From Streptomyces sp. ITFR-21 (GTDB lineage Bacteria; Actinomycetota; Actinomycetes; Streptomycetales; Streptomycetaceae), in NCBI RefSeq assembly GCF_031844685.1, contig NZ_CP134605.1, positions 1,459,501 to 1,523,500 of the forward strand: a DNA stretch of 64,000 bases, read 5' to 3'. A program made the translations under genes and the position numbers. The notes beneath the pieces were generated by a model. That model was not told the DNA's origin, did not search any database, and worked only from the letters and a program-made list of their open reading frames with translations. Position 1 is the first letter of the stretch. Each line of letters starts with the position of its first letter. Shown piece by piece: positions 2,116 to 19,100 of the stretch.

Positions 2116-2179
2116 GGGTCCACGGTAGCCCCCGCGGGAGGGGCCACACCGGGTGGGTGCCGGTCCCTCGGCGTAGCGG

Positions 2180-3720: not shown

Positions 3721-3750
3721 AGATCAACAGTCGGTTGACCTCTAGGTTCG

Positions 3751-5275: not shown

Positions 5276-5281
5276 GAGAAG

Positions 5282-5310: not shown

Positions 5311-5365
5311 CGGTGCTAGCTTTGACCATCGTTAGGTGAAGATCAAGGCTTCACAGGGAGAAGAT

Positions 5366-5572: not shown

Positions 5573-5823
5573 CCCGGAAAAGCGAAAACCCCGAGATGGT
5601 CGAATCATCTCGGGGCACGCAGTTGGCTCTCATTGGTGGCGGAACCGAGTCCACAGTACCGCCCGTCGCCCGTCCCCTACCAGTCATCACCACCGGCCAG
5701 CTCGAATTCGTGGCCCGCTGCCCCGGCTGCGGCCGGCACCACCGGCACGTCAGCCTCGGCGTCAAGCACGCCCCGTGCGGCGCGACCTACGACCTCCAGT
5801 CGAAGCGGGGGCGGGCCGCATGA
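5569..5823 (+). CDS. Small zinc-ribbon protein, unknown function
   Basis: An 84-residue protein with a C-terminal zinc-binding pattern: CPGCGRHHRH followed by HAPCGATYDL. The first 45 residues look disordered. It overlaps the excisionase stop (ATGA at 5569-5572) and the Prim-Pol start (ATGA at 5820-5823), so the three are probably co-translated. Small zinc-ribbon genes often sit between xis and rep in Streptomyces AICEs, but their function is unknown. A strong hairpin (5589-5615) falls in its first codons, so a later start is possible. Confidence 0.7.
   Translation: MTRKSENPEMVESSRGTQLALIGGGTESTVPPVARPLPVITTGQLEFVARCPGCGRHHRHVSLGVKHAPCGATYDLQSKRGRAA
5589..5615. terminator. Perfect 10-bp hairpin inside the zinc-ribbon gene
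   Basis: CCCCGAGATG (5589-5598) and CATCTCGGGG (5606-5615) form a perfect stem with a 7-nt loop. AAAA lies directly before it on the plus strand, so on the minus strand the stem is followed by TTTT: a classic intrinsic terminator pointing left, toward the excisionase/repressor region. On the plus strand it could attenuate transcription into the replication genes. Confidence 0.55.
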
Positions 5824-6683
5824 GCAACTGGCAGCAGGCCCTCGACAACGCCATCAATGCCGCCCGGCTCGGGTTCGGCGTCTTCCCTCTCAGCCGCAAC
5901 AAGGTCCCGGCGATCCCCTCGCCGCACGACCGCGGCCACAACTGCAAGGGCATGGCCCAGTGCGGTTCACCCGGCCACGGCGTAGGCGACGCCACCACCG
6001 TGCCCGCCGATGTCCGATTCCTCTTCGAGCAGGCACCACGCGCAGCCGGATACGGCGTCGCCTGCGACGGCCGCCTCGTCGGCCTCGACCTCGACCGGAA
6101 GAACGGCGTCGACGGCATCGCCACCCTCAACCAACTCGCCGAGCGGTACGGGTTCACCATCCCCCGCACGTTGACCGTGTGCACCCCGTCCGGCGGTCTC
6201 CACCTGTGGCTGACTGTCCCGGAAGGCACGGTCGTGCCCAACTCAGTCGGACGCCTCGGTCCCGGCATCGACGTGCGCAGCACCCGCGGCTACCTCGTCG
6301 GCCCCGGCAGCATGGGCAAGGCCGGCGAGTACCGGTTCCACCCTTCCCTCGGGTACACCGAGCCGCTGCCCTGCCCGCCGGAGCTGCTGAAGCTCATGCT
6401 GCCCCCGCCGGCCCCGGCACGGGTGCAGCCGGCCCTGCTCCGTACCCGCGACGCTGCCCTCGACGGGCTGCTGCGGGTCCTGCTCGGAGCCCAGGAGGGC
6501 GACCGGAACAGCAAGTTGTACTGGGCCTCCTGCAAGGCGTGGGCGCACGTGGCCGACGGACATCTCAACGCCAGCGACGCCGAGCGTGCCCTGGTTGGCG
6601 CGGCTGTCTCGCTCGGTCTGACTGAGGCCGAAGCACAGCGGACCGTGGCGTCCGCCCGACGAACGGCAGGTGCCACCCGATGA
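5820..6683 (+). CDS. Bifunctional DNA primase/polymerase (Prim-Pol)
   Basis: A 287-residue replication protein of the archaeo-eukaryotic primase superfamily (PF09250 type), which primes and extends DNA for element replication. Visible motifs are the metal-binding LDLD (Asp90, Asp92) after GVACDGRLVG, the SGGLHLW motif (Ser124, His128), and GIDVRSTRGYLVGPGS (Asp151, Arg153). A Cys/His cluster (HNCKGMAQCGSPGHG) near residue 45 is common in these proteins. The start is fixed by ATGA overlap with the preceding gene, and its own stop overlaps the helicase start the same way. This protein plus the next gene form the usual AICE/satellite replication pair. Confidence 0.88.
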   Translation: MSNWQQALDNAINAARLGFGVFPLSRNKVPAIPSPHDRGHNCKGMAQCGSPGHGVGDATTVPADVRFLFEQAPRAAGYGVACDGRLVGLDLDRKNGVDGIATLNQLAERYGFTIPRTLTVCTPSGGLHLWLTVPEGTVVPNSVGRLGPGIDVRSTRGYLVGPGSMGKAGEYRFHPSLGYTEPLPCPPELLKLMLPPPAPARVQPALLRTRDAALDGLLRVLLGAQEGDRNSKLYWASCKAWAHVADGHLNASDAERALVGAAVSLGLTEAEAQRTVASARRTAGATR

Positions 6684-7987
6684 CGCTCGAACTCGTCCCA
6701 GGGGGTCAGGTCTCCATTTCTGGCCAACCTCTGGATACCCCCCTCTCCAAATCTGGCCAGCTTCTCGCCGACATCAACCAGGTGTTCGCCCGCTGGCTCG
6801 GCACCGACTACGACCTCGAAGCCCTCGCGGCCGTACTCGCCGTCGCGGCCGGCGAACGCCTCACCGGCGACCCCTGCTGGCTGCTGGTCGTCTCCGGCTC
6901 GGGTGCGGCCAAGACCGAGACCGTCATGCCGTTGCAGGGCGCCGGGGCGGTCATCGTCTCCACCATCACCGGCGAGGCCGCACTGATCTCCGGCACCGCC
7001 GAGAAGGAGAAGGCCAAGGACGCGCACGGCGGGCTGCTCCGGAAGATCGGAGACCGGGGCATTCTCGTCATCAAGGACTTCACCTCCATCCTGTCCATGA
7101 ACCGCGACGCCCGCGCCGCCGTACTCGCCGCGCTCCGGGAGATCTACGACGGCCGATGGGACCGGGAGATCGGCCAGGACGGCGGCAAGACCCTTACGTG
7201 GAAGGGCCGCCTGGTCGTCGTCGGCGCGGTCACCACCGCATGGGACTCCGCACACGCAGTGGTCTCCACCATGGGTGACCGGTTCGTACTCGTCCGGATC
7301 GACTCCAAGACCAAGCAGGGCCGCCGGGCCGCCGGTCTCCAGGCGCTCAAGAACGTCAGCCACGAAGTCGGCATGCGCGAAGACCTGTCCAACGCTGTCG
7401 CAGCGCTCATCAAGTCCGTTGACACCGACCAGACGATCGACCTGACCGACGACGACATGATGCAACTGCTCGGCCTCGCCGACATCGTCACCCTGTCCCG
7501 TACCGCAGTCGAACGGGACTACCAGGGCAACGTCACCCAGGCCCACGCACCCGAGATGCCCACCCGCTTCACCAAGCAGCTCGCCCAGATCATGCGCGGC
7601 GGCATCGCCATCGGCATGGACCGCCTGGCCGCGCTCAACGTGGCGATCCGGTGCGCGCACGACAGCATGCCCCCGCTGCGGATGGCGCTGCTCGCCGACG
7701 TGGTCGACAGCCCCTGGTCGCGTACCGCCGATGTCGTCAAGCGCACCCAGCTCCCCAGGAAGACCGTCGACCGGGCGTTGCAGGAGCTCCACCTCCTCGG
7801 CCTCCTCAAGGTCGATGAACAGCCCTACGGCGAGGGCACCCGCTGGATCTACGCGGTCGCCGACGACATCGACATCGACGACCTCCGAAAGCTGGCCAGA
7901 AATGGAGACCGGGGCCATAAGGGCGCCGCTCCGAGCCTGGCCAGAAATGGAGACCCCACCCCCCAGAGCCCCATGGAGGCGTCATGA
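6680..7987 (+). CDS. AAA+ ATPase / replicative helicase-like protein
   Basis: A 435-residue P-loop protein with Walker A GSGAAKTE (residues 73-80) and Walker B ILVIKDF (Asp133), followed by a region with sensor-like VVVGAVTTAWD and a C-terminal winged-helix-like segment (TADVVKRTQLPRKTVDRALQ). It likely unwinds or loads at the element's origin, working with the Prim-Pol encoded just upstream (ATGA overlap 6680-6683). The extreme N- and C-termini are encoded by inverted copies of the 19-bp repeat, so their odd sequences (VSISGQP..., ARNGDRGHKG...ARNGD) probably reflect DNA-level constraint. The next gene starts in the ATGA at 7984. Exact helicase class not determined. Confidence 0.8.
   Translation: MTLELVPGGQVSISGQPLDTPLSKSGQLLADINQVFARWLGTDYDLEALAAVLAVAAGERLTGDPCWLLVVSGSGAAKTETVMPLQGAGAVIVSTITGEAALISGTAEKEKAKDAHGGLLRKIGDRGILVIKDFTSILSMNRDARAAVLAALREIYDGRWDREIGQDGGKTLTWKGRLVVVGAVTTAWDSAHAVVSTMGDRFVLVRIDSKTKQGRRAAGLQALKNVSHEVGMREDLSNAVAALIKSVDTDQTIDLTDDDMMQLLGLADIVTLSRTAVERDYQGNVTQAHAPEMPTRFTKQLAQIMRGGIAIGMDRLAALNVAIRCAHDSMPPLRMALLADVVDSPWSRTADVVKRTQLPRKTVDRALQELHLLGLLKVDEQPYGEGTRWIYAVADDIDIDDLRKLARNGDRGHKGAAPSLARNGDPTPQSPMEAS
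6709..6760 (+). repeat. Iteron-like pair, 5' end of helicase gene
   Basis: Two related 19-mers sit 33 bp apart (start to start): GGTCTCCATTTCTGGCCAA at 6709-6727 and CCTCTCCAAATCTGGCCAG at 6742-6760 (15 of 19 match the consensus GGTCTCCATTTCTGGCCAG). They lie in codons 10-27 of the helicase gene. Two exact consensus copies in the opposite orientation lie at the other end of the gene (7892-7955). Confidence 0.75.
7892..7955 (-). repeat. Iteron-like pair, 3' end of helicase gene (inverted)
   Basis: CTGGCCAGAAATGGAGACC occurs exactly at 7892-7910 and 7937-7955 (45 bp start to start). It is the reverse complement of the 6709-6760 copies. A further 13-bp core match (TCCATTTCTGGCC) lies at 16941-16953 in the DUF2637 gene. 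The arrangement suggests a protein-binding set, possibly the replication origin. Confidence 0.8.
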
Positions 7988-8250
7988 CGGACATGGCCGA
8001 ACTCGCGTACCACGTCACCGTTGCCGCGCTCGAAGGCGACCGGGACACCCTCGCCGCCTACCTCGCAACCACCCCCGGACCCATCACCACCGCGGCCGTC
8101 GCCGAACTCGCCGTCATGACCATGGCCTCCGTCATCACCGGCGTCCTCACCCCCCAGCAACTCGCCGACATCGTCGAGCAAGTCCGCGGCTTCGCCCGCG
8201 AACGGGCCAACTTCAACAAGATCATTGCCGACCTCACCGAAGGGAACTAA
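7984..8250 (+). CDS. Small helical protein, unknown function
   Basis: An 88-residue, mostly helical acidic protein (ELAYHVTVAALEGDRDTLAA ... LADIVEQVRGFARERANFNK). No motif recognised. It overlaps the helicase gene by ATGA, so it belongs to the replication transcript, and is followed after 5 bp by the next gene. Third positions are strongly C-ended, like the rest of the replication block. Confidence 0.65.
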   Translation: MTDMAELAYHVTVAALEGDRDTLAAYLATTPGPITTAAVAELAVMTMASVITGVLTPQQLADIVEQVRGFARERANFNKIIADLTEGN

Positions 8251-8255
8251 CCCCC

Positions 8256-8981
8256 ATGTCCTTCTCGATCACCTCCGGCGGCGACGGCAGCGCCATCCGC
8301 ATGCACCTCGCCCAGCAGGCCGCCCAGCAGCGCCGTACCCAGGCAGCCCAGACCGCCCCAGCCCCGCCGGCCAGCCCCGCCCAGAAGATGCTCACCGAGC
8401 ACCACGCCAAGGTCGACGAGATCCGCAGCCGGTACGAAACCACCGTGCAGCGCATCCGCGACCACCGCGGACTCACCCCCGAAGCAAAGCGCGGCGGCAT
8501 CGCCCGCGCCTACGAAGAGACCCAGGCCGCGCTCAGCCAGCTAGCGGCAACAGGCCTCGCCGCCATCGAGAACCACCGGCGGAACCTCGTGGACCGCGCC
8601 TGGGGCGGAAAGACCAGCGACCCCCAAGCCGCCATGGCCCAGCGCCAGGCCAACCAGATGGTCAACAGCGTCACCGACCACCACCAGCTCGCTGGCATGC
8701 TCCGCCAGGCCCAACAGGACGGCGACCACCAGCTCGCCAAGACCGTCGCCGGCCAGGCATGGTCCAACGGCTACACCGACATCGTCGACCAGTGGAACCA
8801 CGACGGCGCCCAGAACAGCACCATGCGGCTCCTGATCGAGCACAAGAACATGCCAAAGATCGAGCCCTTCATCTGGGGCGCCGAGCACTCGGTGTACCCG
8901 GCCCGAGAGATCGAAGGACTCAGCGCCCACCGCGTCGGCATGGAAGCCCGCGCCGACTACAGCGGAGGCGACGCCGCATGA
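8256..8981 (+). CDS. Coiled-coil protein, unknown function
   Basis: A 241-residue protein with a Gln/Ala-rich N-terminal helix (HLAQQAAQQRRTQAAQ), a Pro/Ala linker, then long charged helices (HHAKVDEIRSRYETTVQRIR ... YEETQAALSQLAATGLAAIE). It starts at the ATG at 8256 behind GAAGGGAA, the 5-bp gap being the only non-overlap in this block. No catalytic motif or membrane segment is visible. The helical build would suit a structural or DNA-associated protein, but I cannot assign one. It overlaps the next gene by ATGA. Confidence 0.7.
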   Translation: MSFSITSGGDGSAIRMHLAQQAAQQRRTQAAQTAPAPPASPAQKMLTEHHAKVDEIRSRYETTVQRIRDHRGLTPEAKRGGIARAYEETQAALSQLAATGLAAIENHRRNLVDRAWGGKTSDPQAAMAQRQANQMVNSVTDHHQLAGMLRQAQQDGDHQLAKTVAGQAWSNGYTDIVDQWNHDGAQNSTMRLLIEHKNMPKIEPFIWGAEHSVYPAREIEGLSAHRVGMEARADYSGGDAA

Positions 8982-9841
8982 TGCTCACGTTCGAGTACGA
9001 CACCCACAAGACCATGGACGCCGTCACCGCGGCACGCCGGCGCGGCCTGCCCGTACCCCCGGACATCGACGCCACCCGCGCCCTCCACGACACCGTCACG
9101 GCCGCCGCACACATGCCCCGGCCCGACCGGCCCACCGTCGAAGACATCCCCGACACCCCCGAGCAGCTGGCCGCGCTCATCGCCGAGACCGCCCACGCCC
9201 ACCGCATCGCCGAATCCCACCACCAGGTGGCGTCCCTCTACGCCGAGCCCATCGCCCGCAAGTACAACGCCCTCGTCCGCGCCGCCGTACCCGGCTGGAT
9301 CGTCAGCCTCCAGCCCGAGTTCGACAAGCACCTCAAAGTCATCCGCCGGGGCGCCGCAAAACTCCCCCCCACCGACGCCCTCATCGAAGAGCGCGTCGAC
9401 TGGAACGACCCAGCGGTGTCAGCCGCCTGGGAACTGGCCCAAGCCGTCGCGCCCAAGCTCGACCAGATCGTCCACGACCGCCGGACCATGGCCGCAGCAG
9501 TCGGTATCGACGGCGGACGCGACTGGGAGTTCTACACCGTCGCAGCCTTCCCCGACACCACACACCCCGACAGCGAGGGGCAGTTGCTCGCCGGCCACTG
9601 GCGCACCCAGTACGCGCCGATCATGCAGGAGTGGCAGGCCCTCAGGCAGCGGCCCGTCGCCCGGTGGGTCCACCTCGCACGGGCCGAAGGCATCACCCTC
9701 CAGCTCGCCAGGCCAAACGAAGTACGCGAACGCGCAGTCAACGTCGAACGCTGGCGCGAAGCCAACAGGATGATCAGTCCAGCGTCCGGGAACGGCCGCA
9801 ACGCCGCTCTCCGAGGCGTCCAAGCAGCCCTCAGAGGCTGA
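8978..9841 (+). CDS. Unknown soluble protein, last gene of replication block
   Basis: A 287-residue soluble protein starting at ATGATG (8978) in overlap with the previous stop. It is helical with several Trp-containing segments (VDWNDPAVSAAWELAQAVAP, GRDWEFYTVAAFPD, QPVARWVHLARAEGIT) and an Arg-rich tail. I do not recognise the family. Its codon use matches the upstream replication genes and differs from the rightward phage-like block that begins after the hairpin at 9952. It may be replication- or packaging-related by position only. Confidence 0.7.
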   Translation: MMLTFEYDTHKTMDAVTAARRRGLPVPPDIDATRALHDTVTAAAHMPRPDRPTVEDIPDTPEQLAALIAETAHAHRIAESHHQVASLYAEPIARKYNALVRAAVPGWIVSLQPEFDKHLKVIRRGAAKLPPTDALIEERVDWNDPAVSAAWELAQAVAPKLDQIVHDRRTMAAAVGIDGGRDWEFYTVAAFPDTTHPDSEGQLLAGHWRTQYAPIMQEWQALRQRPVARWVHLARAEGITLQLARPNEVRERAVNVERWREANRMISPASGNGRNAALRGVQAALRG

Positions 9842-9951
9842 CCCATGAACGCCAGCGTCAACGGCACCTCAACACGGCTCATGACGACGTGTCCGAGGAC
9901 CCATGGTGATCGGGTCATCTGCTACCCCACGATCACCAGCGCTGGCCGTGC

Positions 9952-9989
9952 CACCCGACGGCCGTCCGCCCGCCAGCGGCCGTCGGGTG
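9952..9989 (+). terminator. Terminator between replication and phage-like blocks
   Basis: A perfect 13-bp stem (CACCCGACGGCCG at 9952-9964, CGGCCGTCGGGTG at 9977-9989) with a 12-nt loop. The 120 bp after it, up to 10109, is the most AT-rich stretch of the element (CCCCATATAGGGG at 9995-10007 and ACTTTTTGAGA near 10023), so it probably carries the promoter of the terminase/tape-measure block. Confidence 0.7.
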
Positions 9990-10109
9990 CACAACCCCAT
10001 ATAGGGGCATTACCCCCCTACCCCACTTTTTGAGACATCGGGGCCGTATAGCACCTGACCGTCTGCTTGCTGATCTTTCTCTGTTTTTCCGTGATCTTGG
10101 GAGCGTGAC

Positions 10110-10472
10110 ATGGCCGATGGACAGGCCCCGGACGGGCTTGAACAGCGCGGTTCGGAGCTGTGGGAGGCGATCGCCTCCGGCTTTGAGCTGCGCCAGGACG
10201 AGCTGCGCGTGCTGGAGGACGCGTGCCGTGAGGCGGACCTGATTGAGCGTCTGCACCAGGCGCATCTGTCGGCGCCGCTGGTGGTGACGGGCAGCATGGG
10301 TCAGCCTGTGGCGTCGCCGCTGGTGCAGGAACTGAGAGCGCATCGTGCCTTGCTGGCCCGGCTGCTGGGCACGCTGAAGCTTCCTGACGACGACGAGCGG
10401 CAGGCGTCGGACGGGCAGCGCCGCACGGTGCAGGCCCGTAAGGCGGCCATGGTCCGCTGGGGCAACCGATGA
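10110..10472 (+). CDS. Phage terminase small subunit-like protein (P27/TerS type)
   Basis: A 120-residue protein matching the actinophage small-terminase pattern: LEQRGSELWEAIASGFELRQ, DELRVLEDACREADLIERL, then a VTGSMGQPVASPLVQELRAH segment followed by RALLARLLGTLKLPDD and a basic tail. Small terminases recognise the packaging site and hand DNA to the large ATPase/nuclease subunit. No large subunit is present in the element, so it would have to work with one supplied in trans. The ATG at 10110 follows GGGAG (10099-10103). It overlaps the next gene by ATGA. Confidence 0.75.
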   Translation: MADGQAPDGLEQRGSELWEAIASGFELRQDELRVLEDACREADLIERLHQAHLSAPLVVTGSMGQPVASPLVQELRAHRALLARLLGTLKLPDDDERQASDGQRRTVQARKAAMVRWGNR

Positions 10473-10684
10473 GCCGGCGGAAGACCCGGCGACCCGACGA
10501 GGAGGATGGTTACCCACCCCCGCTCGATGTGTTCGCTGTAGCGGATTGGTGGGTGGCCGACCCGGACGACCCGATGGGGCTGGGGTATGCCCGGATCATG
10601 TGGACGGGGGCCCGTCGTGCCTTCCTGGACGGCGAGGATTGGCAGGCCCACTTGGGGCCGCCTGCCTGGCTGCAGCACAACTGA
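10469..10684 (+). CDS. Small acidic protein between TerS and tape measure
   Basis: A 71-residue protein with a basic start (MSRRKTRRPDEEDG) and a Trp-rich acidic body (VADWWVADPDDPMGLGYARI). No family recognised. The ATGA overlap with the TerS gene implies coupled translation. It lies 48 bp before the tape-measure gene, where a tail assembly chaperone would be in a full phage, but it is too short to call one. Confidence 0.6.
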   Translation: MSRRKTRRPDEEDGYPPPLDVFAVADWWVADPDDPMGLGYARIMWTGARRAFLDGEDWQAHLGPPAWLQHN

Positions 10685-10732
10685 ACGTCTTGCCTTCTTG
10701 GGCCCGCGCCATCGAGCTTCCAGGAGGAAGTC

Positions 10733-13700
10733 ATGGCAATCAGCGTGGGGTCCGTCGAAGTCGACGTGATCCCGAATACGTCGGGCATCTATCAGCGGTT
10801 GAAGGACGGTCTCGTACCGGCCGCGACGCGGGCCGGCGAGGATGCGGGTCGGGCGGCCGGGCGGGCGTTCGGTCCGGCGATGGCATCGGGGATCGACAAC
10901 TCCGCGGCGACGGCGATCGGCGAGCGGATCGGCCGGCAGATCGGCTCGCGGATCGCGGCCCAGGTGCGGTCGTCTTTGTCGAGTGGGATCACGACGGGCG
11001 GGCAGGCTGCGCGGGCGTCCGCGACCCGGGCGGGTGATGATGCGGGTGGCGCGTTCGGCCGGCTGTTCCGTACCCGTGTGGAGGCTGCGTTCCGGTCTCT
11101 GCCGCGTGTGAACGTCGGTGCGGACGCGACGGGGTTTGACGCGGAGATGGACCGCCTGCGAGCCCGTCTGGAGACGCTGAGCAACAAGCGGATCGGCATC
11201 GACGTGTCCGCTACTGACGCGCTTGCGGAGCTGGACCGTATCCAGGCCCGGCTGGTGGCTCTTGGCGCCAACCACACGGACGTGAATGTCCGGATCGACA
11301 CGGCCCGCGCGACGGCCCAGCTCGACTTGCTGCGGGGGGAGATCGCCGCGGTTGACGGGACTGACATCGAGGTCGATGCGGATGTTGACACCGGCCGGGC
11401 GGTTCAGGGGTTCAGTAATCTGGTGACGGCGGCGCTGGCGTTCGGTCCGGCGCTCATCCCCGCCTTGCCCGTCATCGCGGCCGGCCTGGGCGGTGTCGCT
11501 GCCGCTGGTGTCGCTGCGGCTGTCGGCCTGGGCGGTATCGCCGCGGTGGCGGTGCCCGCGTTCAAGCAGATCAGCAGTGTCCTGGCGTTGCAGAAGGCGG
11601 CGCAGGACGCCTCGAACACGTCGGTGAAGTCGGGTACGGGCAACGCCTTGCAGATGGCCGGCGCCCAGCAGGCGCTGGCGTCGGCGGAGCGCAGCGCGGG
11701 CCAGCAGATCGCGTCAGCGAACGAGCAGGTGGCCCAGGCGAAGCGTGCCGTCGGTGACGCGGTGGCCCAGGCGGCGCAGAGGCAGCAGCAGGCGGCCCGT
11801 GCGGTCGTGACTGCGGAGACGGCGCTCACGCAGTCGCAGAAGGCCGCCACGCAGGCTCAGGCGGACCTGACGGCTGCCCGGCGGACTGCGGTGCAGCAGC
11901 TCGCCGATCTCGCGTCCCAGTACGCGAACGCCCAGCTGTCGCAGCGGCAGGCGGACCTCCAGCTGCAGGAGGCCCAGGCCGACCTCAACAAGACCATGGC
12001 CGACCCGACGGCGACGCAGTTGCAGCGGGCCGAGGCGAAGCTGGCCTACGACCAGGCGGTGCAGCAGCTCGCCGACCAGACGACCGCGACCGCGCGCCTG
12101 AAGGACCAGCAGACGGCCGCAAGCAAGGCCGGTGTCGACGGCAGCGCCGTCGTGGTCCAGGCGCAGCAGCAGGCGGCCCAGGCGCAGCAGGACGTGCTCG
12201 ACAAGACCACGGCTCTCCACGACGCGCAGGCAGCGCAGGCGCAGACCGAGGTGGACAACGCCCGCTCGGTCTCGGACGCTCAGGCGAAGGTCGCCGACGC
12301 GGTGCGGGGGGTGGCCAACGCCCAGGCGGCTGCAGCGGATTCGATCGCGTCCGCGCAGCGGCAGATCCAGTCGGCCCAGCAGTCGGCGGCCGGCGGCGCG
12401 TCGGCCGCGGAGCAGGCTCAGGCGAAGTACCGGGCGGAACTGGCGAAGATGACCCCGGCCAGCCGGGCCACTCTGGGCGCCTTCACCAACCTGAAGTCGG
12501 TGTTCGGGGCCTGGTCGAAGTCGTTGCAGCCGGCGGTCATGCCGATCTTCACCCGGGCCTTGAACGGACTCGCGAAGGCTCTGCCGGGGCTGACGCCGTT
12601 CGTGACGGCCGCCGCGGATGCTGTCGGCGGCCTGGAGGACAAGCTGGGCAGGCAGGTGAAGATGCCCTGGGCGAAGTCGCTGAAGGACGACTTGGGGACG
12701 TCGATCGGACCGTCGATCGACCACCTCGGGACGAGCCTGGGCAACATCTTCAAGGGTGCCGGCGGCATCATCGACGCGTTCCTGCCGCACGTGGATGCGG
12801 CCGGCGACAAGGTCGACGGGTGGACGGGGAAGTTCGCAAAGTGGGGCACCTCGCTGAAGGGCTCGCCGCAGTTCGAGAGCTTCATCGACTACGTGAAGGT
12901 GCAGGGGCCGATCCTCGGCCGGACCATCGGCAACGTCTTCTCCGCGATCACGCGGATCATCACGGCGCTGGCGCCGCTGTCGGGTACGTCGGTGATCCTG
13001 ATCAACGCGATCACGAAGGTGATCCAGGCGATCCCGATAAGGGTCCTGGAGATTTTGGGCGCGCTGTTCGTGGCGCTGGCCGTGGGCATGAAGGTCGCTG
13101 CGATCGCCGAGGGCCTTTTGAATATCGCGCTGGACGCGAACCCGATCGGTCTGGTCATCACCGCGGTCGCCGCACTCGTCGTGATCTTCATCTACGCGTA
13201 CACGAAGTTCGACTGGTTCCGGAAACTGGTACAGGACGTGTGGAAGGGGCTCGTCACCGGGGCGCTGTTCGCCTTCAACTGGCTGAAGAGGAACTGGCCG
13301 CTCGTCCTCGGCATCATCACCGGCCCTGTCGGGATCGCCGTCGTGCTCGTGATCAAGTACTGGCGCCAGATCAGTGACGCCTTCTCCACCGGCTGGCAGT
13401 GGCTGAAGGGCCACGTGTTCAGCCCCATCGGGGCGTTCTTCACCCAGACGATTCCCGGCTGGGCCGGCAGCCTGCGGGACAAGGTCATCGGCGCGTTCGA
13501 CGCCTTGCAGAAGGGCGTCGGCCTGATGTGGGGCAAGATCAAGGACGAGACGAAGAAGCCCGTCAACTTCGTGATCAACCAGGTGTGGAACAAGGGCATC
13601 GTCAGCATCTGGGACAAGGTCGGCGGCTGGATTCCTGGCCTGCCCAAGCTGCACACCCTGCCGCAGCTCGCCGCGGGCGGCACCGTCCCGGCACGACCCG

Positions 13701-14677
13701 GGGTGTTCAGCAAGCCGACCGCGATCGTGGGAGAGGGCCGCTCGCAGTACCCCGAGTACGTCATCCCCACCGACCCCCGCTACCGGGGCCGGGCCCTGGG
13801 CCTGCTCCAGCAGGCCGGCACGCAGATGCTCGCGGGCGGCGGCATCATCGGCACCATCACCGGTGTGGCCAAGTCGGTCGGCGGCGCCGTCGTGGGCGGC
13901 ATCAAGTCCGCCGGGGACTTCCTGAAGGACCCCGTAGGCGGTCTGGTGAAGCTGCTCGGGCCGGTGCTGGACAAGCTCACCCCCGACTTCGGGTCGACCG
14001 GCTGGGGCAGGATGGCGGCGAGCCTGCCCACGATGGCCGTGGACGGTCTGAAGAAGCTGGTGGGGCTGGGCGGGGACAGCGCGACCTCGTTCAAGCCGTC
14101 CGCCGGAGTGGCCCAGTGGGCGCCGACGATCCTTCAGGCGCTCGCCCTGCTCGGCCAGCCCTCCTCCTGGCTCGGCACCGTCGAGCGGCGCATGAACCAG
14201 GAGAGCGGCGGCAACCCGACCGTGGTCAACAAGTGGGATTCCAACTGGCTGGCCGGCCACCCGAGCGTGGGCCTCATGCAGGTGATCGGGGGCACCTTCC
14301 GCCGCTTCGCCGGGGCGTACCGGCAGCGCGGCCCCTTCGAGTACGGGGTGTCCACCGACCCGCTCGCGAACACCTTCGCGGGCCTGAACTACGCCCTGCA
14401 CCAGTACGGCTCCCTGTCGGCCCTGAACCGCGCGGGAGGTTACGACCACGGCGGGTACCTGGCCCCCGGGCTGAACCTGGCCTACAACGGCACCGGCCGG
14501 CCTGAGCCCGTTTTCACCACCGCGCAGGCCAACGCCCTGGTCTCCTCGGCAGCGCCGGGACGAACGGCCGCGGCCGGGGGGGACGTGAACGTCTACTACA
14601 ACGCACCCACCCCGGAGAACCCCTACAAGGCAGCCATGGAGTTCGGCCGCCGGACCCTCGCGGCGGTGAGCATCTGA
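10733..14677 (+). CDS. Phage tail tape-measure protein with lytic transglycosylase domain
   Basis: A 1,314-residue tape-measure protein, by far the largest gene of the element. The order is: a typical N-terminus (ISVGSVEVDVIPNTSGIYQR), Gly/Ala-rich hydrophobic stretch near residues 228-285, a long Gln/Ala coiled coil at about 300-565, hydrophobic segments around 750-890 (including ITAVAALVVIFIYAYTKFDW and GIITGPVGIAVVLVIKYW), a repeat region, and a C-terminal SLT-like transglycosylase domain with ESGGNP (catalytic Glu1157 expected) and GLMQVIGGTFRRFAG. The ATG follows AGGAGG (10722-10727). In phages this protein sets tail length and aids DNA entry through the cell wall. No tube, baseplate or chaperone genes accompany it here. 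Confidence 0.92.
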   Translation: MAISVGSVEVDVIPNTSGIYQRLKDGLVPAATRAGEDAGRAAGRAFGPAMASGIDNSAATAIGERIGRQIGSRIAAQVRSSLSSGITTGGQAARASATRAGDDAGGAFGRLFRTRVEAAFRSLPRVNVGADATGFDAEMDRLRARLETLSNKRIGIDVSATDALAELDRIQARLVALGANHTDVNVRIDTARATAQLDLLRGEIAAVDGTDIEVDADVDTGRAVQGFSNLVTAALAFGPALIPALPVIAAGLGGVAAAGVAAAVGLGGIAAVAVPAFKQISSVLALQKAAQDASNTSVKSGTGNALQMAGAQQALASAERSAGQQIASANEQVAQAKRAVGDAVAQAAQRQQQAARAVVTAETALTQSQKAATQAQADLTAARRTAVQQLADLASQYANAQLSQRQADLQLQEAQADLNKTMADPTATQLQRAEAKLAYDQAVQQLADQTTATARLKDQQTAASKAGVDGSAVVVQAQQQAAQAQQDVLDKTTALHDAQAAQAQTEVDNARSVSDAQAKVADAVRGVANAQAAAADSIASAQRQIQSAQQSAAGGASAAEQAQAKYRAELAKMTPASRATLGAFTNLKSVFGAWSKSLQPAVMPIFTRALNGLAKALPGLTPFVTAAADAVGGLEDKLGRQVKMPWAKSLKDDLGTSIGPSIDHLGTSLGNIFKGAGGIIDAFLPHVDAAGDKVDGWTGKFAKWGTSLKGSPQFESFIDYVKVQGPILGRTIGNVFSAITRIITALAPLSGTSVILINAITKVIQAIPIRVLEILGALFVALAVGMKVAAIAEGLLNIALDANPIGLVITAVAALVVIFIYAYTKFDWFRKLVQDVWKGLVTGALFAFNWLKRNWPLVLGIITGPVGIAVVLVIKYWRQISDAFSTGWQWLKGHVFSPIGAFFTQTIPGWAGSLRDKVIGAFDALQKGVGLMWGKIKDETKKPVNFVINQVWNKGIVSIWDKVGGWIPGLPKLHTLPQLAAGGTVPARPGVFSKPTAIVGEGRSQYPEYVIPTDPRYRGRALGLLQQAGTQMLAGGGIIGTITGVAKSVGGAVVGGIKSAGDFLKDPVGGLVKLLGPVLDKLTPDFGSTGWGRMAASLPTMAVDGLKKLVGLGGDSATSFKPSAGVAQWAPTILQALALLGQPSSWLGTVERRMNQESGGNPTVVNKWDSNWLAGHPSVGLMQVIGGTFRRFAGAYRQRGPFEYGVSTDPLANTFAGLNYALHQYGSLSALNRAGGYDHGGYLAPGLNLAYNGTGRPEPVFTTAQANALVSSAAPGRTAAAGGDVNVYYNAPTPENPYKAAMEFGRRTLAAVSI

Positions 14678-14683
14678 CCCGAC

Positions 14684-14710
14684 GCCCCCGGCTACGCGCC
14701 GGCCGGGGGC
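14684..14710. terminator. Bidirectional hairpin between tape measure and GntR gene
   Basis: GCCCCCGGC (14684-14692) and GCCGGGGGC (14702-14710) form a 9-bp perfect stem with a 9-nt loop between two convergent genes, overlapping the last codons of the GntR gene. Confidence 0.55.
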
Positions 14711-14931
14711 ACGATCACGAACGTGCCCTTGTTGGGGAGCGTGGCGACCAGGCCGCGCTCGCGCAGCTCGGCGACCGCCCGGCGGGCCGTGCCGGGAGCT
14801 ACGCCGTACTGCTCGCCCATGGCCCGCTCGTTGGGCAGACGCGCACCGGCAGGCAGCCGGCCCGACCGGATCTCCGCCTCAACCTGGTCGGCCACCTCGA
14901 CGTAGACGTACTGCGGCAGGCCCTCGCTCAT
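14692..14931 (-). CDS. Short GntR-family winged-helix regulator
   Basis: A 79-residue protein that is only the GntR wHTH domain: PQYVYVEVADQVEAEIRSGR, LPAGARLPNERAMGEQYGVA, TARRAVAELRERGLVATLPN and the wing KGTFVIV. There is no effector domain. Such short GntR proteins are common on Streptomyces plasmids and AICEs, where related proteins (KorA/TraR) repress transfer or replication genes. The ATG at 14931 is chosen because it begins the domain. It is divergent from the small gene at 15083, with repeated operator-like DNA between them. Confidence 0.85.
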   Translation of the reverse strand: MSEGLPQYVYVEVADQVEAEIRSGRLPAGARLPNERAMGEQYGVAPGTARRAVAELRERGLVATLPNKGTFVIVPPAGA

Positions 14932-14965
14932 GATCGGAACGTAGGGCGGCCCGGCGCTCCCGGCA

Positions 14966-15006
14966 TCTGTAGGTGGCCGTATGGGGCGCCATATGGTGGC
15001 CTGTAG
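14966..15006. promoter_or_regulatory. Repeat-rich divergent operator region near GntR gene
   Basis: CTGTAGGTGGCC (14967-14978), the interrupted palindrome TATGG-GGCG-CCATA (14980-14993) and TGGCCTGTAG (14997-15006) are packed upstream of the gntR start. TGGCCTGTAG recurs exactly at 15528-15537 in the other repeat-rich gap. These are plausible GntR-binding sites; the assignment is inference. Confidence 0.45.
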
Positions 15007-15082
15007 CGGTACCGTCTGAACAGCAGAAACCCCCGCGGCCGATGGCACGGCCCGGGGGATTGGACGACCGGAAGGGGTCGAC

Positions 15083-15334
15083 ATGGAACACAGTACCGGC
15101 GGGCACTGGCGGGACACCGGCGAAGGACTCGTCTCCGTCGAGCTGCCCACCATCGAGCAGCCACCCGCCGACAGGCCCGCCCGGGTGTTCACCGGCGGGG
15201 CCGCAGAGAGCCCCCGCAACGCCGCGTACCGGACGTATCTCAGCCACGTGGCTGACTGCCCGCAATGCACCCAGAGCGTGTTCCGGTGCGCCGACGGCGA
15301 CCGGCTCTGGGACGCGTACACCGCCGCCCGCTGA
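15083..15334 (+). CDS. Small Cys/His protein, unknown function
   Basis: An 83-residue protein with a compact C-terminal H-x4-C-x2-C-x7-C pattern (SHVADCPQCTQSVFRCADGD) followed by LWDAYTAAR. I recall similar short proteins in Streptomyces integrative elements, probably zinc-binding. The ATG follows GGAAGGGG (15070-15077), a strong ribosome site. It is transcribed alone and ends at a hairpin (15435-15459). Confidence 0.65.
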   Translation: MEHSTGGHWRDTGEGLVSVELPTIEQPPADRPARVFTGGAAESPRNAAYRTYLSHVADCPQCTQSVFRCADGDRLWDAYTAAR

Positions 15335-15434
15335 GACCGGGCCGCCGGTCGGTTCGTGACGACGATGACGACGTCGTTGACGACGGCGGGCCTGAAGGTC
15401 TCCACCAGCAACGGTCGTTCGTCGTCACGACGAA

Positions 15435-15459
15435 GGGGCCCGTCGCCATGACGGGCCCC
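15435..15459 (+). terminator. Terminator-like hairpin
   Basis: GGGGCCCGTC (15435-15444) and GACGGGCCCC (15450-15459), a perfect 10-bp stem with loop GCCAT, followed by TCTTG. It lies 100 bp after the small Cys/His gene. Confidence 0.65.
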
Positions 15460-15472
15460 TCTTGCGTGTGGC

Positions 15473-15615
15473 CTACAACTAACCCCTTCCGGAAGGGGTT
15501 GTAGTTCGTAGGTAGGCGGTAGGTAGCTGGCCTGTAGTTGCCGCGCTGACCTGCGCGGTAGTCGGACTACACCCCTCCCATGGGGCACCCCGGGAAGGGG
15601 TCGGGGGAGGGGCTG
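15473..15615. repeat. GTAG-repeat and palindrome region, candidate cis-acting site
   Basis: The 329-bp gap 15335-15663 has no gene but is highly structured. A perfect 20-bp palindrome (AACCCCTTCCGGAAGGGGTT, 15481-15500) is followed by seven GTAG tetramers between 15501 and 15561 (at 15501, 15508, 15512, 15519, 15523, 15534, 15558), one in TGGCCTGTAG, then by GC-rich inverted repeats around 15571-15601. It lies between the convergent ends of a rightward gene and the leftward operon, so it is not an obvious promoter. A transfer, replication or packaging site is possible. Confidence 0.55.
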
Positions 15616-15663
15616 CCGGAAGCGATTGGAGAGCACCCGGAGAGCGGGTGTGGAGCCGGTGGA

Positions 15664-16029
15664 CTAGGGCCGGTCGGGGGCGCTCTCCACCACCCCGGAA
15701 GGGGCACTCTCCAGGGCAGGGGAGGGGAGTCCGCGGGCGGCGGATTCGGCGGCCTCCTCCGCGTCCCACCGGGCCTCGACCTCGGCCATCGTGAGACCGG
15801 TCGGGACCACCTCCAGGGTGAGAGTGAAGCGGACCGTTCCGCAGTCCCCTCCCACCGTCTCCTGCATGGCCACGTCGGGGGCTCCGTCGCCTAGCTCGCA
15901 CAGCCCGTCGAGGAGGCTGTCGCGGGCGTTGTCGAGCAGCACCTCGCGGACGTAGTCGGCCGGCGTCAGGGAGGCCAGCCACTCGTCAAAGAGCCGCTTC
16001 CGTTCGATCGGGTCCCAGGTGGTGGTCAC
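15664..16029 (-). CDS. Unknown acidic protein, last gene of leftward operon
   Basis: A 121-residue protein (VTTTWDPIERKRLFDEWLAS ... LLDNARDSLLDGLCELGDGA) with an acidic, disordered tail (VEARWDAEEAAESAARGLPS). The GTG start at 16029 overlaps the stop of the DUF6907 gene (GTGA) behind a GAGGAG ribosome site. No family recognised. It is the distal gene of the six-gene leftward transcript that starts near 18538. Confidence 0.7.
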   Translation of the reverse strand: MTTTWDPIERKRLFDEWLASLTPADYVREVLLDNARDSLLDGLCELGDGAPDVAMQETVGGDCGTVRFTLTLEVVPTGLTMAEVEARWDAEEAAESAARGLPSPALESAPSGVVESAPDRP

Positions 16030-16481
16030 GACTCCTCCTCCGTGAGTTCGGCGAGCTGGTCGCGCAGCTCTTGCAGCCGCGCGGTGTAGATCTTCAGGTC
16101 CCGGATCAGCTGGTCGGTCTCGGCGACATCGAGCCATGCGCCCTGTCCGGCATTGAGGGTGTCGACGTAGATGAACGGGGTGCCGAACGTGCCGTCGTCC
16201 AGGGGCTCGGCGCTCAACTCGGTGTGGAGCACCGGGTAGACGCGGTCTTCCTCGGTGCAGAAGTCGGCGCTGTCCCAGTAGTGGTCGCCGGGGGCGACGA
16301 GCTGGAACGACGGACCGGTGTGCCACTCGTGGTCGTAGAAGTGACCGGGCTCCGCGGTGCCGAGCAGCGCACCGGGTACGGGCGTGCCGTGGGTCTGGGT
16401 GCAGAACGCGGGGCACTGCATGTCGACCTCGTGGCCGAGAGTGTGCCGGGTGCGGACGAGGCGGTACGGGATGTACGTCAT
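16026..16481 (-). CDS. DUF6907-like protein
   Basis: A 151-residue protein with the N-terminal CPAFCTQTHG motif, a later DHEWHTGPSFQL and DHYWDSADFCTEED, and a C-terminal helix of the WLDVAETDQLIRDLKIYTAR type. The CPAxC-x(3)-H start and closing segment are what I recall of the DUF6907 family, which is abundant on Streptomyces integrative elements and has no known function; metal binding is plausible. The ATG at 16481 lies in an ATGA overlap with the DUF2637 gene. Confidence 0.7.
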   Translation of the reverse strand: MTYIPYRLVRTRHTLGHEVDMQCPAFCTQTHGTPVPGALLGTAEPGHFYDHEWHTGPSFQLVAPGDHYWDSADFCTEEDRVYPVLHTELSAEPLDDGTFGTPFIYVDTLNAGQGAWLDVAETDQLIRDLKIYTARLQELRDQLAELTEEES

Positions 16482-17296
16482 GACACTCCCCCGGTAGCGA
16501 TCTTCTTGATGCGGCGGCCGTAGGAGTCGGAGGTTCCGAAGCGGCGGCCGATCTCGGTTCCGGTCAGTTCCGGCTCGGCGGCCAGCCACTCCCGGACGGT
16601 GCGCACCCGCTCGGGCGGAACCCCGCCGGAACCGGCGGCCGGTTCCGGCTCGGGTTCCGGAACCACGGGCTCAGGTTCCGGCGGTTCCGCTGCCAGTTCC
16701 GTTCCTTCCCCGATCGGGGAAAGTTGCTGGTCGCGGCTGGTTCCGGCGAGCAGTTCCGCCACCGGGACGAGCGGGCCGAGGACGGGCGCTTCCCGCAGAT
16801 CTGCGGGAAGCGTCGAGCCTGTGACCTGCGGTTCCGGAACCCGTTCGAGCACCACCGGTTCCGGTGCCGGCTCCGCCGGAACCTCAACCCGACTCCGACC
16901 GGAGCCGGAGTCGGCGGCCCCCTCCACCTGGGGCACCCCCTCCATTTCTGGCCCGGTCGGAGTCGGGTCGGAGTCGGAGATGGCGTGCACCCGAACGAGG
17001 ACCAGGATCGGCAGCGCCGACACCGCGACCACCACCGGCCACGAAGCGGACAGCAGGCCGGCCGACACCAGATGCGACACCGCGTTCACCGCGAACATCA
17101 CACCGGCCATCAAGGCCATGTCCTTCCGTACCCGCATCGAGCGAACCGCGTACACGTCCAGCGCCCCCGGCAGGGCGAACGAGACGTAACCCCACCCGGA
17201 CTCCCTGGCGAGCTTGTACTCGGCCGCCGCGGTGCCCACGATCGCCATCACGAGGGCCGCGTTCCCGAGCAGATCCCACTTCTTCCGCACGGTCAC
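16478..17296 (-). CDS. DUF2637 membrane protein with C-terminal HTH
   Basis: A 272-residue protein: four predicted membrane helices in the first 105 residues (GNAALVMAIVGTAAAEY, VSFALPGALDVYAVRSM, MALMAGVMFAVNAVSHLV, SWPVVVAVSALPILVLV), then a long Pro/Glu/Val low-complexity linker (EPEPVVPEPEPEPAAGSGG) and a C-terminal helix-turn-helix (WLAAEPELTGTEIGRRFGTS, DSYGRRIKK). This build matches DUF2637/SpdB-like proteins of actinomycete plasmids and AICEs, some linked to intramycelial spread. The start is the GTG at 17296 in a GTGA overlap. The gene carries a 13-bp copy of the helicase iteron core at 16941-16953. Confidence 0.8.
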   Translation of the reverse strand: MTVRKKWDLLGNAALVMAIVGTAAAEYKLARESGWGYVSFALPGALDVYAVRSMRVRKDMALMAGVMFAVNAVSHLVSAGLLSASWPVVVAVSALPILVLVRVHAISDSDPTPTGPEMEGVPQVEGAADSGSGRSRVEVPAEPAPEPVVLERVPEPQVTGSTLPADLREAPVLGPLVPVAELLAGTSRDQQLSPIGEGTELAAEPPEPEPVVPEPEPEPAAGSGGVPPERVRTVREWLAAEPELTGTEIGRRFGTSDSYGRRIKKIATGGVS

Positions 17297-17646
17297 CGCC
17301 CGATCGTCTCGTCGTAGCACGGCCCCTGGTACACGCCGTTGACGTACCCGGCCACCAGGTAGCGGGGCTCTTCCTGCGTACCGAGCAGGGGCGCTCCCCG
17401 CTCGACGGCTGCGGCGAGCTGGCGGAGCTTCGCGGCGAACTTCAGGGCCTCGGCCCCGTCGCGGGTGCGGAAGAGGTTGTCGCCGTCCTCCGCCTCCCAC
17501 ACGATCAGCTCGGCCGGCTCGGTGGTGCCGACGCTCACCTCGGTGATGAGCGCCGTACCCGGCCCGGCCAGGTCGGCGAGGACCACGTCGCAGATTTCGT
17601 CGTCGTGCCAGCTGCCGGAGCAGCCGGGGATACGGCAGTCGCTCAT
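17293..17646 (-). CDS. Small protein with CxxxxCxxxWH start, unknown function
   Basis: A 117-residue protein beginning MSDCRIPGCSGSWHDDEICD, a Cys/His cluster that may bind metal, followed by beta-rich sequence (ALITEVSVGTTEPAELIVWE) and a helix (DGAEALKFAAKLRQLAAAVE). The overall plan resembles the DUF6907 proteins next to it (Cys/His head, terminal helix), so it may be a divergent relative. It overlaps both neighbours (ATGA at 17643-17646, GTGA at 17293-17296). Confidence 0.7.
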   Translation of the reverse strand: MSDCRIPGCSGSWHDDEICDVVLADLAGPGTALITEVSVGTTEPAELIVWEAEDGDNLFRTRDGAEALKFAAKLRQLAAAVERGAPLLGTQEEPRYLVAGYVNGVYQGPCYDETIGR

Positions 17647-17825
17647 GCCTGGTCTCCCATCGCGCGGTCGAGCATCTTGTCGAACAGCAGCGCCCCGTAC
17701 CGGTCACCGGTCGCACGGGCCACGATCAACAGGTCCGCCACCCGGGCCGGGGACAGCCGGCGGGCCGTCACCTTGTCCACGGCCGCGTCCTCCGTCGGCC
17801 GGCGGACCACCGCCGGGCCGCTCAT
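17643..17825 (-). CDS. Small helical protein, unknown function
   Basis: A 60-residue protein: MSGPAVVRRPTEDAAVDKVT followed by ARRLSPARVADLLIVARATG and a C-terminal helix (LLFDKMLDRAMGDQA). The start at 17825 is in an ATGA overlap with the upstream gene, and its stop overlaps the next start, so it is translated within the operon. No family recognised; I accept it because of the tight overlaps on both sides. Confidence 0.6.
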   Translation of the reverse strand: MSGPAVVRRPTEDAAVDKVTARRLSPARVADLLIVARATGDRYGALLFDKMLDRAMGDQA

Positions 17826-18538
17826 CGGGCGCCGCCGTTGCGCGCCCAGTCCTCGCGGGCGGCGATCAGCATGGGCCGCACCTCGTTGTCGAGGCGGTCG
17901 GCCTGCGCCCGCAGCTTCGCGGCCAGGTCGGCGACACCGTCCGGGTCCAAGGGCGTCAGCCAGTCGTCGCTGCCCTCCAGTGCCTCGATGCGCACCATGG
18001 GCACTCGCTCGGCCGGGTCGTCCGAGTACGGCTGGAGCCAGATCCCGCCTTCCAAAATCCCGCACGGGCCGACGTACCGCCCCTTGCCCCCGCCCTGGCT
18101 CACGTCGACTTCGATGATCTGTCCGTCGAAGTGCCGGACGTGCGCCAGGTCGGACAGGCGCAACTCCAGGTAGTTCGCCGGAATGTTCTCCTCGCTCGGG
18201 TCCTGCGGGTCCCACGGCGGCAGGTAGCCGGTGATGCTGGCCCCGTGCTCCGTAGTGATGGTCCACGTCTTGCCTGCCGGGGGCGCGGTGGGCTCGGCGG
18301 CCTCGCCCCGGTGCTGGCCGCACACCAACTTCTGGGCGCCGGACGGCCACCGGGCCCCGGACGGGTCCGGGTACCAGGGGCCGGTGGTGTCGCCGCAGAC
18401 GTGGCACGCGGGCAGCAGGGGCTCCGTGGCCGGCGCCTGGTCGGCGGTACGGGTGTGCTCGGCGACGGTCTTGCGGACGCGGTCGGCGAAGGCCCGGTAG
18501 AAGTCGGTGTCGGGAAGCGTCTGTACGCTCGTACCCAT
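17822..18538 (-). CDS. DUF6907-like larger protein, first gene of leftward operon
   Basis: A 238-residue protein with a CHVCGDTTGPW motif near residue 45, a second Cys/His pair (LVCGQHRGEA), a central beta-rich domain (TWTITTEHGASITGYLPPWD ... LELRLSDLAHVRHFDGQIIE) and a C-terminal helix (VADLAAKLRAQADRLDNEVR). The beta domain plus closing helix resembles the DUF6907 plan. It starts with ATG at 18538 behind AAAGGGAGAT, a strong ribosome site, and leads the six-gene leftward operon. Inverted repeats in the divergent gap (18608-18667) probably control it. Confidence 0.7.
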   Translation of the reverse strand: MGTSVQTLPDTDFYRAFADRVRKTVAEHTRTADQAPATEPLLPACHVCGDTTGPWYPDPSGARWPSGAQKLVCGQHRGEAAEPTAPPAGKTWTITTEHGASITGYLPPWDPQDPSEENIPANYLELRLSDLAHVRHFDGQIIEVDVSQGGGKGRYVGPCGILEGGIWLQPYSDDPAERVPMVRIEALEGSDDWLTPLDPDGVADLAAKLRAQADRLDNEVRPMLIAAREDWARNGGAR

Positions 18539-18607
18539 GGTTGATCTCCCTTTGCGGAGGGGTTCGGCCTAGGCCCTGGCCGGTGGGTGAGATCACCGGT
18601 TGGGGCC

Positions 18608-18667
18608 GTCTACTTTGTGGCAGGAACAGACTTGCACGACTGGGCCCGTCACTGCAACAAAGTAGAC
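18608..18667. promoter_or_regulatory. 11-bp inverted repeat operator in divergent promoter
   Basis: GTCTACTTTGT (18608-18618) and ACAAAGTAGAC (18657-18667) are perfect inverted copies 49 bp apart centre to centre, with a related partial copy CGTCTAGTC just beyond (18688-18696). They lie between the leftward operon (start 18538) and the rightward HTH gene (start 18719). The spacing of about five helical turns would allow looping by one regulator, possibly the HTH protein itself. Confidence 0.7.
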
Positions 18668-18718
18668 GAAGATTCTTTTCGTGAGCCGTCTAGTCAGTGG
18701 ACGCACAGACGTGAGAGC

Positions 18719-18982
18719 ATGCAGCTCATGACAGGAGAGAAGGAAGCCAAGCCCCTCACGGACGCCCAATGGCTCCGCAAGCTAGACAAGGCATCCGCTG
18801 CGCACGAGAAGACGCGGAAGGCCCTTGACGAGCTGCTGGCGGATGCCCGACAGGCCGGCCTCCCCCTCACCGCCATCTCGGAGCACACCCCGTACAGCCG
18901 GGAGTGGGTACGGCGGATCGCCACGCGGATCGCTTCGGAGCGTGAGCAACAGCAGTCCGCAGACAGTCCGCAGCACCCTTAG
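18719..18982 (+). CDS. Small helix-turn-helix protein
   Basis: An 87-residue protein whose C-terminal half is an HTH: ALDELLADARQAGLPLTAIS followed by EHTPYSREWVRRIATRIASE. The pattern resembles sigma-region-4-like or Fis-type small regulators seen on Streptomyces elements. I use the ATG at 18719; the ATG at 18728 is an alternative. It is divergent from the six-gene operon with an inverted-repeat operator between them, and is the last gene before attR. Confidence 0.65.
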   Translation: MQLMTGEKEAKPLTDAQWLRKLDKASAAHEKTRKALDELLADARQAGLPLTAISEHTPYSREWVRRIATRIASEREQQQSADSPQHP

Positions 18983-19037
18983 CTGCACCCATCGCGACCC
19001 ATCGCCATCCATCGGTAAAAGATGCTGGTCAACGCAC

Positions 19038-19073
19038 CGCGCCCCTTCCGCCACAGGTGGCAGAAGGGGCGCG
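19038..19073 (+). terminator. Long hairpin next to attR
   Basis: CGCGCCCCTTC and GCCAC (19038-19054) pair with GTGGC and GAAGGGGCGCG (19057-19073), giving a 16-bp stem with one internal mismatch and a 2-nt loop. It ends 3 bp before attR, so it can end element transcripts at the junction. Confidence 0.7.
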
Positions 19074-19075
19074 AA

Positions 19076-19100
19076 AGTTCGAGCTGTACTTCGACATCTA
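19076..19100. repeat. attR: 25-bp direct repeat
   Basis: An exact copy of 3695-3719. The next base is G, so the duplicate reads TAG where glnA now reads TAA; the chromosome to the right, starting GAAGACCCC, is the native sequence after glnA. Confidence 0.95.

Follow-up and report, generated by a model that had tools for sequence, protein, structure and literature searches.

The 64,000-nucleotide stretch of DNA analysed here (hereafter the window), taken from the genome of Streptomyces sp. ITFR-21 (7.36 Mb), contains an integrated element that spans window positions 3720–19100 (15.4 kb). Along with an integrase, a primase and two kinds of regulator (XRE-type, phrog_8; GntR-type, PF00392), the element carries genes for a small terminase subunit (TerS) and a tape measure protein (TMP). 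An earlier note, made from the sequence alone, had proposed it as a candidate phage satellite with this gene pair. The features are listed in Table 1.

A perfect direct repeat of 25 bp marks the two ends of the element. Its left copy terminates the glutamine synthetase coding sequence; the spacing of the two copies (15,381 bp) agrees with the 15.4 kb given in the earlier note. Integration was precise. When the two host flanks were joined into a query of 240 bases, with the junction at base 120, uninterrupted sites were found in other genomes of the genus, the alignments crossing the junction in G009, G020 and G031 (bases 1–209, 88–89% identity), G021 (1–216, 91%), G024 (1–213) and G022 (8–215; both 82%). 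In a local re-check the alignments of G009 and G020 reached bases 180 and 185, respectively, both still beyond the junction. The end of the glutamine synthetase gene was matched in all 35 genomes searched, the element's own genome counted. Integrase and attachment (att) repeats together mark a discrete integrated element, as expected of a phage satellite. In G021, part of the att site occurs a second time, 18 kb from the uninterrupted site; between the two copies, immediately downstream of the glutamine synthetase gene, lies an integrase element (L247; G021:C1:5981500–6001400) with a Prim-Pol and an FtsK-like protein.

TerS and TMP are encoded in a short block flanked by two terminator-like hairpins (Table 1). 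The assignments of both proteins in the earlier note were confirmed by profile comparison (Table 1), and both reading frames are intact. Other TMP families of PHROGs also matched the 1,314-residue protein, while a Pfam scan gave no match for either TerS or TMP. The TMP gene has a G+C content at third codon positions of 0.91, and its ATG is preceded by a GGAGG sequence. Near the C terminus of the TMP, the pattern MNQESGGNP...SVGLMQVI was observed, which we take to be an SLT-type transglycosylase motif (no Pfam domain was scored). The gap between TerS and TMP is 260 bp. The 71-residue protein encoded after terS had no PHROG match, and its homologues were seen in related elements only; it was considered as a tail chaperone and rejected, since homologues occur in elements without a TMP.

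Table 1. Features of the integrated element (window coordinates; aa, amino acids; HTH, helix-turn-helix; ORF, open reading frame).
Feature	Position	Strand	Evidence and remarks
attL	3695-3719		25-bp repeat; 3' end of glutamine synthetase gene (ORF 1396-3720)
Tyrosine integrase	3751-4845	-	PF00589, E 2e-21; 75-77% identical to integrase of G091 sister element, same site
XRE-type regulator	4802-5329	-	phrog_8, E 7.5e-8; 61% in G091; true start probably near 5275
AlpA/excisionase-like HTH_17 protein	5336-5572	+	PF12728, E 1e-7; 53% in G091
Prim-Pol primase	5820-6683	+	PF09250, E 1.8e-31
Probable replication protein, 435 aa	6680-7987	+	Weak: no Pfam above cut-off, weak PHROG matches, adjoins primase
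Small core gene, common to LUP47B element	7984-8250	+	phmmer E 1e-5
Core gene, 241 aa	8256-8981	+	Conserved across element family
Family-defining core gene, 287 aa	8978-9841	+	Distribution given in text
Strong terminator-like hairpin ahead of terS block	9952-9989		13-bp arms; fold -35.4 kcal/mol for 9940-10000
terS, small terminase subunit, 120 aa	10110-10472	+	phrog_1496, E 1.6e-22, residues 5-109
71-aa protein gene, overlaps terS end	10469-10684	+	42% in G091, 51% in SPB074
Tape measure protein, 1,314 aa	10733-14677	+	phrog_4197, E 2.5e-117
Terminator-like hairpin where TMP gene and gntR end	14684-14710		Fold -24.2 kcal/mol for 14670-14720
GntR-type HTH, 79 aa	14692-14931	-	PF00392, E 3e-15
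Right-arm small gene	15083-15334	+	
Right-arm small genes	15664-18538	-	
Right-arm small gene	18719-18982	+	HTH
attR	19076-19100		25-bp repeat

Other virion genes were sought by tblastn (E 1e-4) with 1,223 labelled phage proteins (terminase, portal, protease, scaffold, decoration, capsid, head-tail, tail tube, chaperone, TMP, minor tail, lysis) and annotated proteins of the reference phages Samy, Marky, Mendokysei, phiC31, R4, SV1 and JSForest2. Within the element, TerS and TMP were the sole matches, which bears out the claim that further virion genes are absent. Large terminase, portal, capsid and tail tube genes, by which a prophage would be recognised, were not found by tblastn, and neither tblastn nor the PHROGs profile scans detected a capsid, portal or large terminase of the kind made by capsid-forming phage-inducible chromosomal islands (cf-PICIs). 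Among the remaining genes, no family of head, tail or translocase proteins emerged from PHROGs and Pfam scans (Pfam alone for integrase and excisionase). The FtsK/TraB translocase expected of an actinomycete integrative and conjugative element (AICE) was likewise missing from the element's proteins, as the earlier note had stated, both in the profile scans and in tblastn with three FtsK-like proteins. At a control phage locus (L062), this query set found 18 classes, including large terminase, portal and tail tube, and missed the capsid; control runs were partly self-matching, the query set having included proteins from the controls' own contigs. The element thus has the incomplete virion gene set of satellites in general, combined with a small terminase of its own, as in TerS-encoding phage-inducible chromosomal islands (PICIs), and a TMP of its own, as in the PICI-like elements (PLEs) of Vibrio.

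Relatives were identified through the 287-residue core gene, which was found in 7 of 394 Streptomycetaceae genomes. In the scan of genome contigs, the core protein as a single query gave no match; the alignment of the core gene gave four loci, three of which were taken as the elements of G091, G106 and G330. Nine same-core elements were compared, namely those of the window, G091, G106 (Streptomyces sp. LUP47B), G330 (Streptomyces sp. MZ04), SPB074, G259, G270 (two) and G035, with gene calls in the other genomes made by a simple custom caller. TerS was present in five: the window, G091 (64%), SPB074 (44%), G259 (33%) and the second G270 copy (57%), the last three being confirmed by PHROG. Two of the nine, those of the window and LUP47B, had a TMP, and in LUP47B the TerS position is taken by an HNH gene. 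TerS and TMP therefore vary independently behind the core genes, and because relatives hold one without the other (TerS alone in four of the nine, TMP alone in one), the element appears to have acquired the two in separate events. A homologue of the 71-residue protein gene comes after TerS in both G091 and SPB074. The TMP-less element of G091 has a candidate att repeat of 26 bp at the same site as the window element, and the two G270 elements (L244 and L245, both on G270:C1) are related copies within one genome, 86–97% identical in aligned blocks.

The wider distribution of such TMPs was surveyed with phrog_4197 in the 394 genomes, 61 of which had a match at E 1e-40. Sixty stretches around these TMPs were examined, leaving out G235 (two places), G101, G319, G356, G313, G110 and G466. 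BLAST gave structural labels in 51 of the stretches (one label in L198, two each in L201, L204 and L210, at least three in the rest) and none in six (L165, L183, L192, L200, L205 and L207). Three (L176, L190 and L196) were ambiguous, with one or two labels; in tblastn each had one structural class besides TMP (L190 having two labels in the survey), and they were left out of the count. The six unlabelled stretches, together with the window, G003 and G029, make up nine TMP elements with a recurrent pattern, a TMP unaccompanied by genes for large terminase, portal or tail tube. For the eight besides the window, the tblastn query set used above matched TMP alone. Their TMPs measure 704–1,514 aa (phage median 1,429 aa, n = 51).

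An HK97-type capsid gene was found by PHROGs beside the TMP in L205 (G326), where no portal or large terminase was labelled. The same arrangement, with the capsid gene beside a TerS relative, was seen in L047 (G028). The BLAST labels had missed both capsid genes, so that absences in the other elements lean on the PHROGs scan. That scan compared 79 proteins encoded by seven of the TMP elements, apart from TMPs, TerS-like proteins and the majority of integrases and primases; of 28 matching families, the 25 listed (ten of them undescribed) included none for head, tail or packaging. One of the 79 proteins matched phrog_12531 ('FtsK/SpoIIIE-like'), its element not being identifiable, and a 744-residue protein of G244 matched neither FtsK-like references nor Pfam. 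A search for att sites yielded candidate repeats in G029 (46 bp, at tRNA-Ala), G003 (48 bp, near tRNA-Thr) and G062 (18 bp); L165 and L205 gave no candidate, and L200 no convincing one. In G003 and G005, TerS-like genes belong to other families (phrog_7344, E 9.8e-8, and phrog_2538, E 3.7e-9, respectively), and for this reason the combination of TerS and TMP apparently arose more than once. The G003 element (G003:C87; L125/L126) has 25.7 kb between att-like repeats and carries an FtsK-like translocase, a TerS-like gene, a 1,514-residue TMP and, between the latter two, a second integrase; it may be composite.

The TMPs of the nine elements were each closest in BLAST to a different phage TMP. 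By parsimony, a tree of 115 TMPs, built with a quick method and having 19 open branches as well as some long ones, required eight element/phage changes among the nine (ambiguous rows excluded); the grouped table of the tree gives one change, but it leaves unlabelled phage rows out of account and is not the count to be used. L183 and L192 grouped with the window genome's own prophage. Among 23 IMG/VR records tested, the TerS family occurred in nine: all eight chosen by TerS and one of the 15 chosen by TMP, indicating that this type of TMP is spread more widely than this type of TerS. All five top TerS phage records (G493, G494, G487, G473 and G488; 123–131 bits, 56–63% identity) contained TMPs related to that of the element (45–58% in the main segments, 30–40% in some C-terminal ones). 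Among the next four (G489 at 122 bits, G490, G491 and G492; 72–122 bits, 43–56%), three had no TMP match and G489 a weak one. In a near phage (L032), TerS and TMP lie approximately 10 kb apart, with thirteen called genes between them.

The remaining genes form a backbone of integrase, excisionase, regulator and primase that resembles those of AICEs. With regard to the capsid-size redirecting genes or phage-inducible regulator by which a TerS-encoding PICI would be recognised, regulators of the XRE and GntR types are present, and the core genes of 241 and 287 aa matched no known family in the PHROGs and Pfam profile scans. Within the 3' end of the probable replication gene (7892–7955), a 19-nt repeat occurs in two perfect copies 45 nt apart, possibly origin iterons. 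Counterparts of the GntR-type gene were found near the TMP in G003 (89%) and G005 (by phmmer). The small genes of the right arm had weak or no PHROG matches, and some had homologues in other TMP elements. The pair formed by the GntR-type gene and the adjacent 83-residue gene (14692–15334) also has a counterpart at the end of a resident prophage (L058:5906–6531; 64% and 41%), a possible regulatory link or gene exchange. This prophage (L057/L058, G000:C1 at about 1,910,000–1,936,000) has portal, TMP, minor tail and lysis genes, and its large terminase region (L057:4903–6352) seems to contain an intein with an HNH endonuclease.

We interpret the element, with a probability of about 0.62, as an integrative phage satellite on an AICE-like backbone that brings its own TerS and TMP to a siphophage helper. 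Its satellite nature is well supported at the level of sequence by the exact att ends, the satellite-type backbone, the lack of other detected virion genes and the presence of TerS in five of nine same-core elements; the element probably travels inside helper-virus particles. Several results weigh against this interpretation. The earlier note had named degenerate TerS and TMP genes in relatives, with no conserved pairing, as counting against its proposal, and this was found in part: the pair occurs together in only one of the nine same-core elements, that of the window, and in one G270 copy approximately 400 bp with most of TerS is gone from flanking DNA that is 86–96% identical. No tail assembly chaperone was matched with 84 tac1/tac2-labelled proteins and the references, a search that a diverged chaperone could escape. 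IMG/VR viral contigs scanned with the core gene alignment contained none of the element family. The separation between phages with and without a related TMP is thin (123 vs. 122 bits at the edge), the records so separated may be fragments, and the profile used on the 23 IMG/VR records included two of the five top TerS records. The helper prophage with related tail genes that the earlier note suggested seeking in the same genome did not emerge: the best TMP found elsewhere in the genome was 35% identical over residues 94–677. The resident prophage was accordingly rejected as helper, its TMP (at C1:1925304) being the only long relative in the genome; TerS occurred in the window copy only, in DNA and protein searches alike. 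Finally, FtsK/TraB-like translocases in the same-core elements of LUP47B, G259 and G035 and in the TMP element of G003 make conjugation plausible as an older transfer route.

The chance survival of two genes in a deleted prophage, given as the alternative in the earlier note, is disfavoured because TerS and TMP occur separately in relatives, and is weakened further by the spacing of the two genes in phages. A related explanation, in which the element is a degraded or mosaic remnant and TerS and TMP are functionless leftovers of phage recombination, would fit their joint presence in one of the nine same-core elements and the loss of most of TerS in one G270 copy. We regard it as improbable given the intact frames, the 71-residue homologue behind TerS in G091 and SPB074, the contrast between a distance of about 10 kb in the near phage and 260 bp in the element, and the eight changes in the TMP tree. 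Slightly less improbable, yet still unlikely, is a non-virion role of the TMP as an interference factor that titrates helper chaperones, tip or tube proteins, blocks helper tails and protects the host, with TerS either packaging or acting as a decoy. The lack of a detected chaperone gene with the TMP would suit such a role, and tail or virion assembly is reported as a target of defences encoded by prophages and islands (PMC11364771, PMC10884400). However, a decoy would hardly need the C-terminal hydrolase-like motif that the long TMP retains, and whole TMPs recur in nine elements.

We give very little weight to a conjugative or mobilisable AICE whose TMP, through its wall-hydrolase-like region, would help DNA across the cell wall without any phage particle. 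Its merits lie in the backbone, which we take to be AICE-like, in the FtsK/TraB-like proteins of the G003 and LUP47B TMP elements and in the single phrog_12531 match. Against these stand the missing FtsK-like gene in the window element, a TerS with no known role in conjugation, and the resemblance of TerS and TMP to those of one phage lineage.

With respect to known systems, satellite TMPs are not unprecedented. In the main text of a study of Vibrio PLEs, PLE11 incorporates its own TMP into virions and has tails about 10 nm shorter, and deletion of tmp in PLE1, PLE4 and PLE11 lowers transduction by 96–99.9%; the tails are chimeric, and PLEs also encode a tail assembly chaperone (PMC12987554, Nature 2026). 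That text calls the PLEs the first known case of tail piracy by satellites, and the words Streptomyces, Mycolicibacterium and actinobacter- are absent from it; the legend of its Extended Data Fig. 10 mentions putative tmp genes in PLE-like elements and some cf-PICIs (PMC12987554). Like PLE1, PLE4 and PLE11, the present element is integrated and has its own TMP; it differs from them in being actinobacterial, with a siphophage-type TMP, its own TerS and no chaperone found. By analogy, it would be PLE-like in its tail and similar to TerS-type PICIs in its packaging. Classical Staphylococcus aureus pathogenicity islands (SaPIs) are not known to carry a TMP. TerS-type SaPIs and PICIs share with the element an integrase, a regulator, a primase and a TerS that redirects packaging, as also summarised in the introduction of PMC10690885. 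As portrayed there, cf-PICIs also take their tails from a helper, and some have a putative TMP (PMC12987554), but they make their own capsid and terminase (PMC10690885), whereas no capsid gene was detected here. MulchRoom and MiniFlayer, two phage satellites of Streptomyces, differ from the element in having genes for capsid, portal and both terminase subunits and in having no primase; MulchRoom shares with it a tyrosine integrase and a GntR-like HTH (PMC10690885, whose main text lacks the word 'tape').

A further comparison is with eleven 11-kb phage records of Mycolicibacterium aichiense (OR387111–OR387121), of which the annotation of two, OR387116 and OR387121 (L006 and L007), was examined. 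They combine a TerS of phrog_1496 with a TMP and an integrase; in contrast to the element, they also have a capsid gene and head-tail genes, one of them with a scaffold annotated as well, and a serine integrase, and their best TMP family is phrog_305. The two examined have no separate large terminase or portal annotated and themselves look like satellites. No published account of these phages, and no paper on an actinobacterial satellite with a tape measure, was found in the open-licence literature. The earlier note knew of no described actinobacterial satellite with this pair; the idea has precedents in the Vibrio TMPs and in the Mycolicibacterium records with TerS, TMP and capsid. What appears to be new is the actinobacterial version, in which TerS and TMP are accompanied by neither a capsid gene nor a detectable chaperone gene, together with its repeated capture.

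Under the satellite interpretation, the element would excise and replicate once a siphophage from the lineage with similar TerS and TMP infects the cell or is induced. The TerS of the element would then bring the helper large terminase to element DNA, and its TMP would substitute for that of the helper in the helper-made tail tube, yielding a chimeric tail, so that tail length and injection protein of the element's particles would be set by the element. TerS and TMP matched to one helper lineage would favour satellite over helper particles, and an own TMP may also escape blocks directed at the helper TMP. More tentatively, Streptomycetaceae may harbour a class of AICE-derived satellites that keep a place for virion genes matched to the helper, in which a whole TMP, with or without TerS, would have been captured about eight times (by parsimony in this sample) from whatever siphophage lineage was exploited. 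In such a class, chimeric tails would be built without an own chaperone, and the TMP would be a plug-in part fixing helper choice and DNA injection.

If this interpretation is true, satellite tail piracy would reach beyond the Vibrio PLEs, into Actinobacteria and siphophage tails; the survey suggests that satellites acquired TMPs repeatedly. The element would offer a simple genetic test of the TMP's own role in tail length, helper specificity or injection, and AICEs, usually viewed as conjugative, would become linked to phage satellites.

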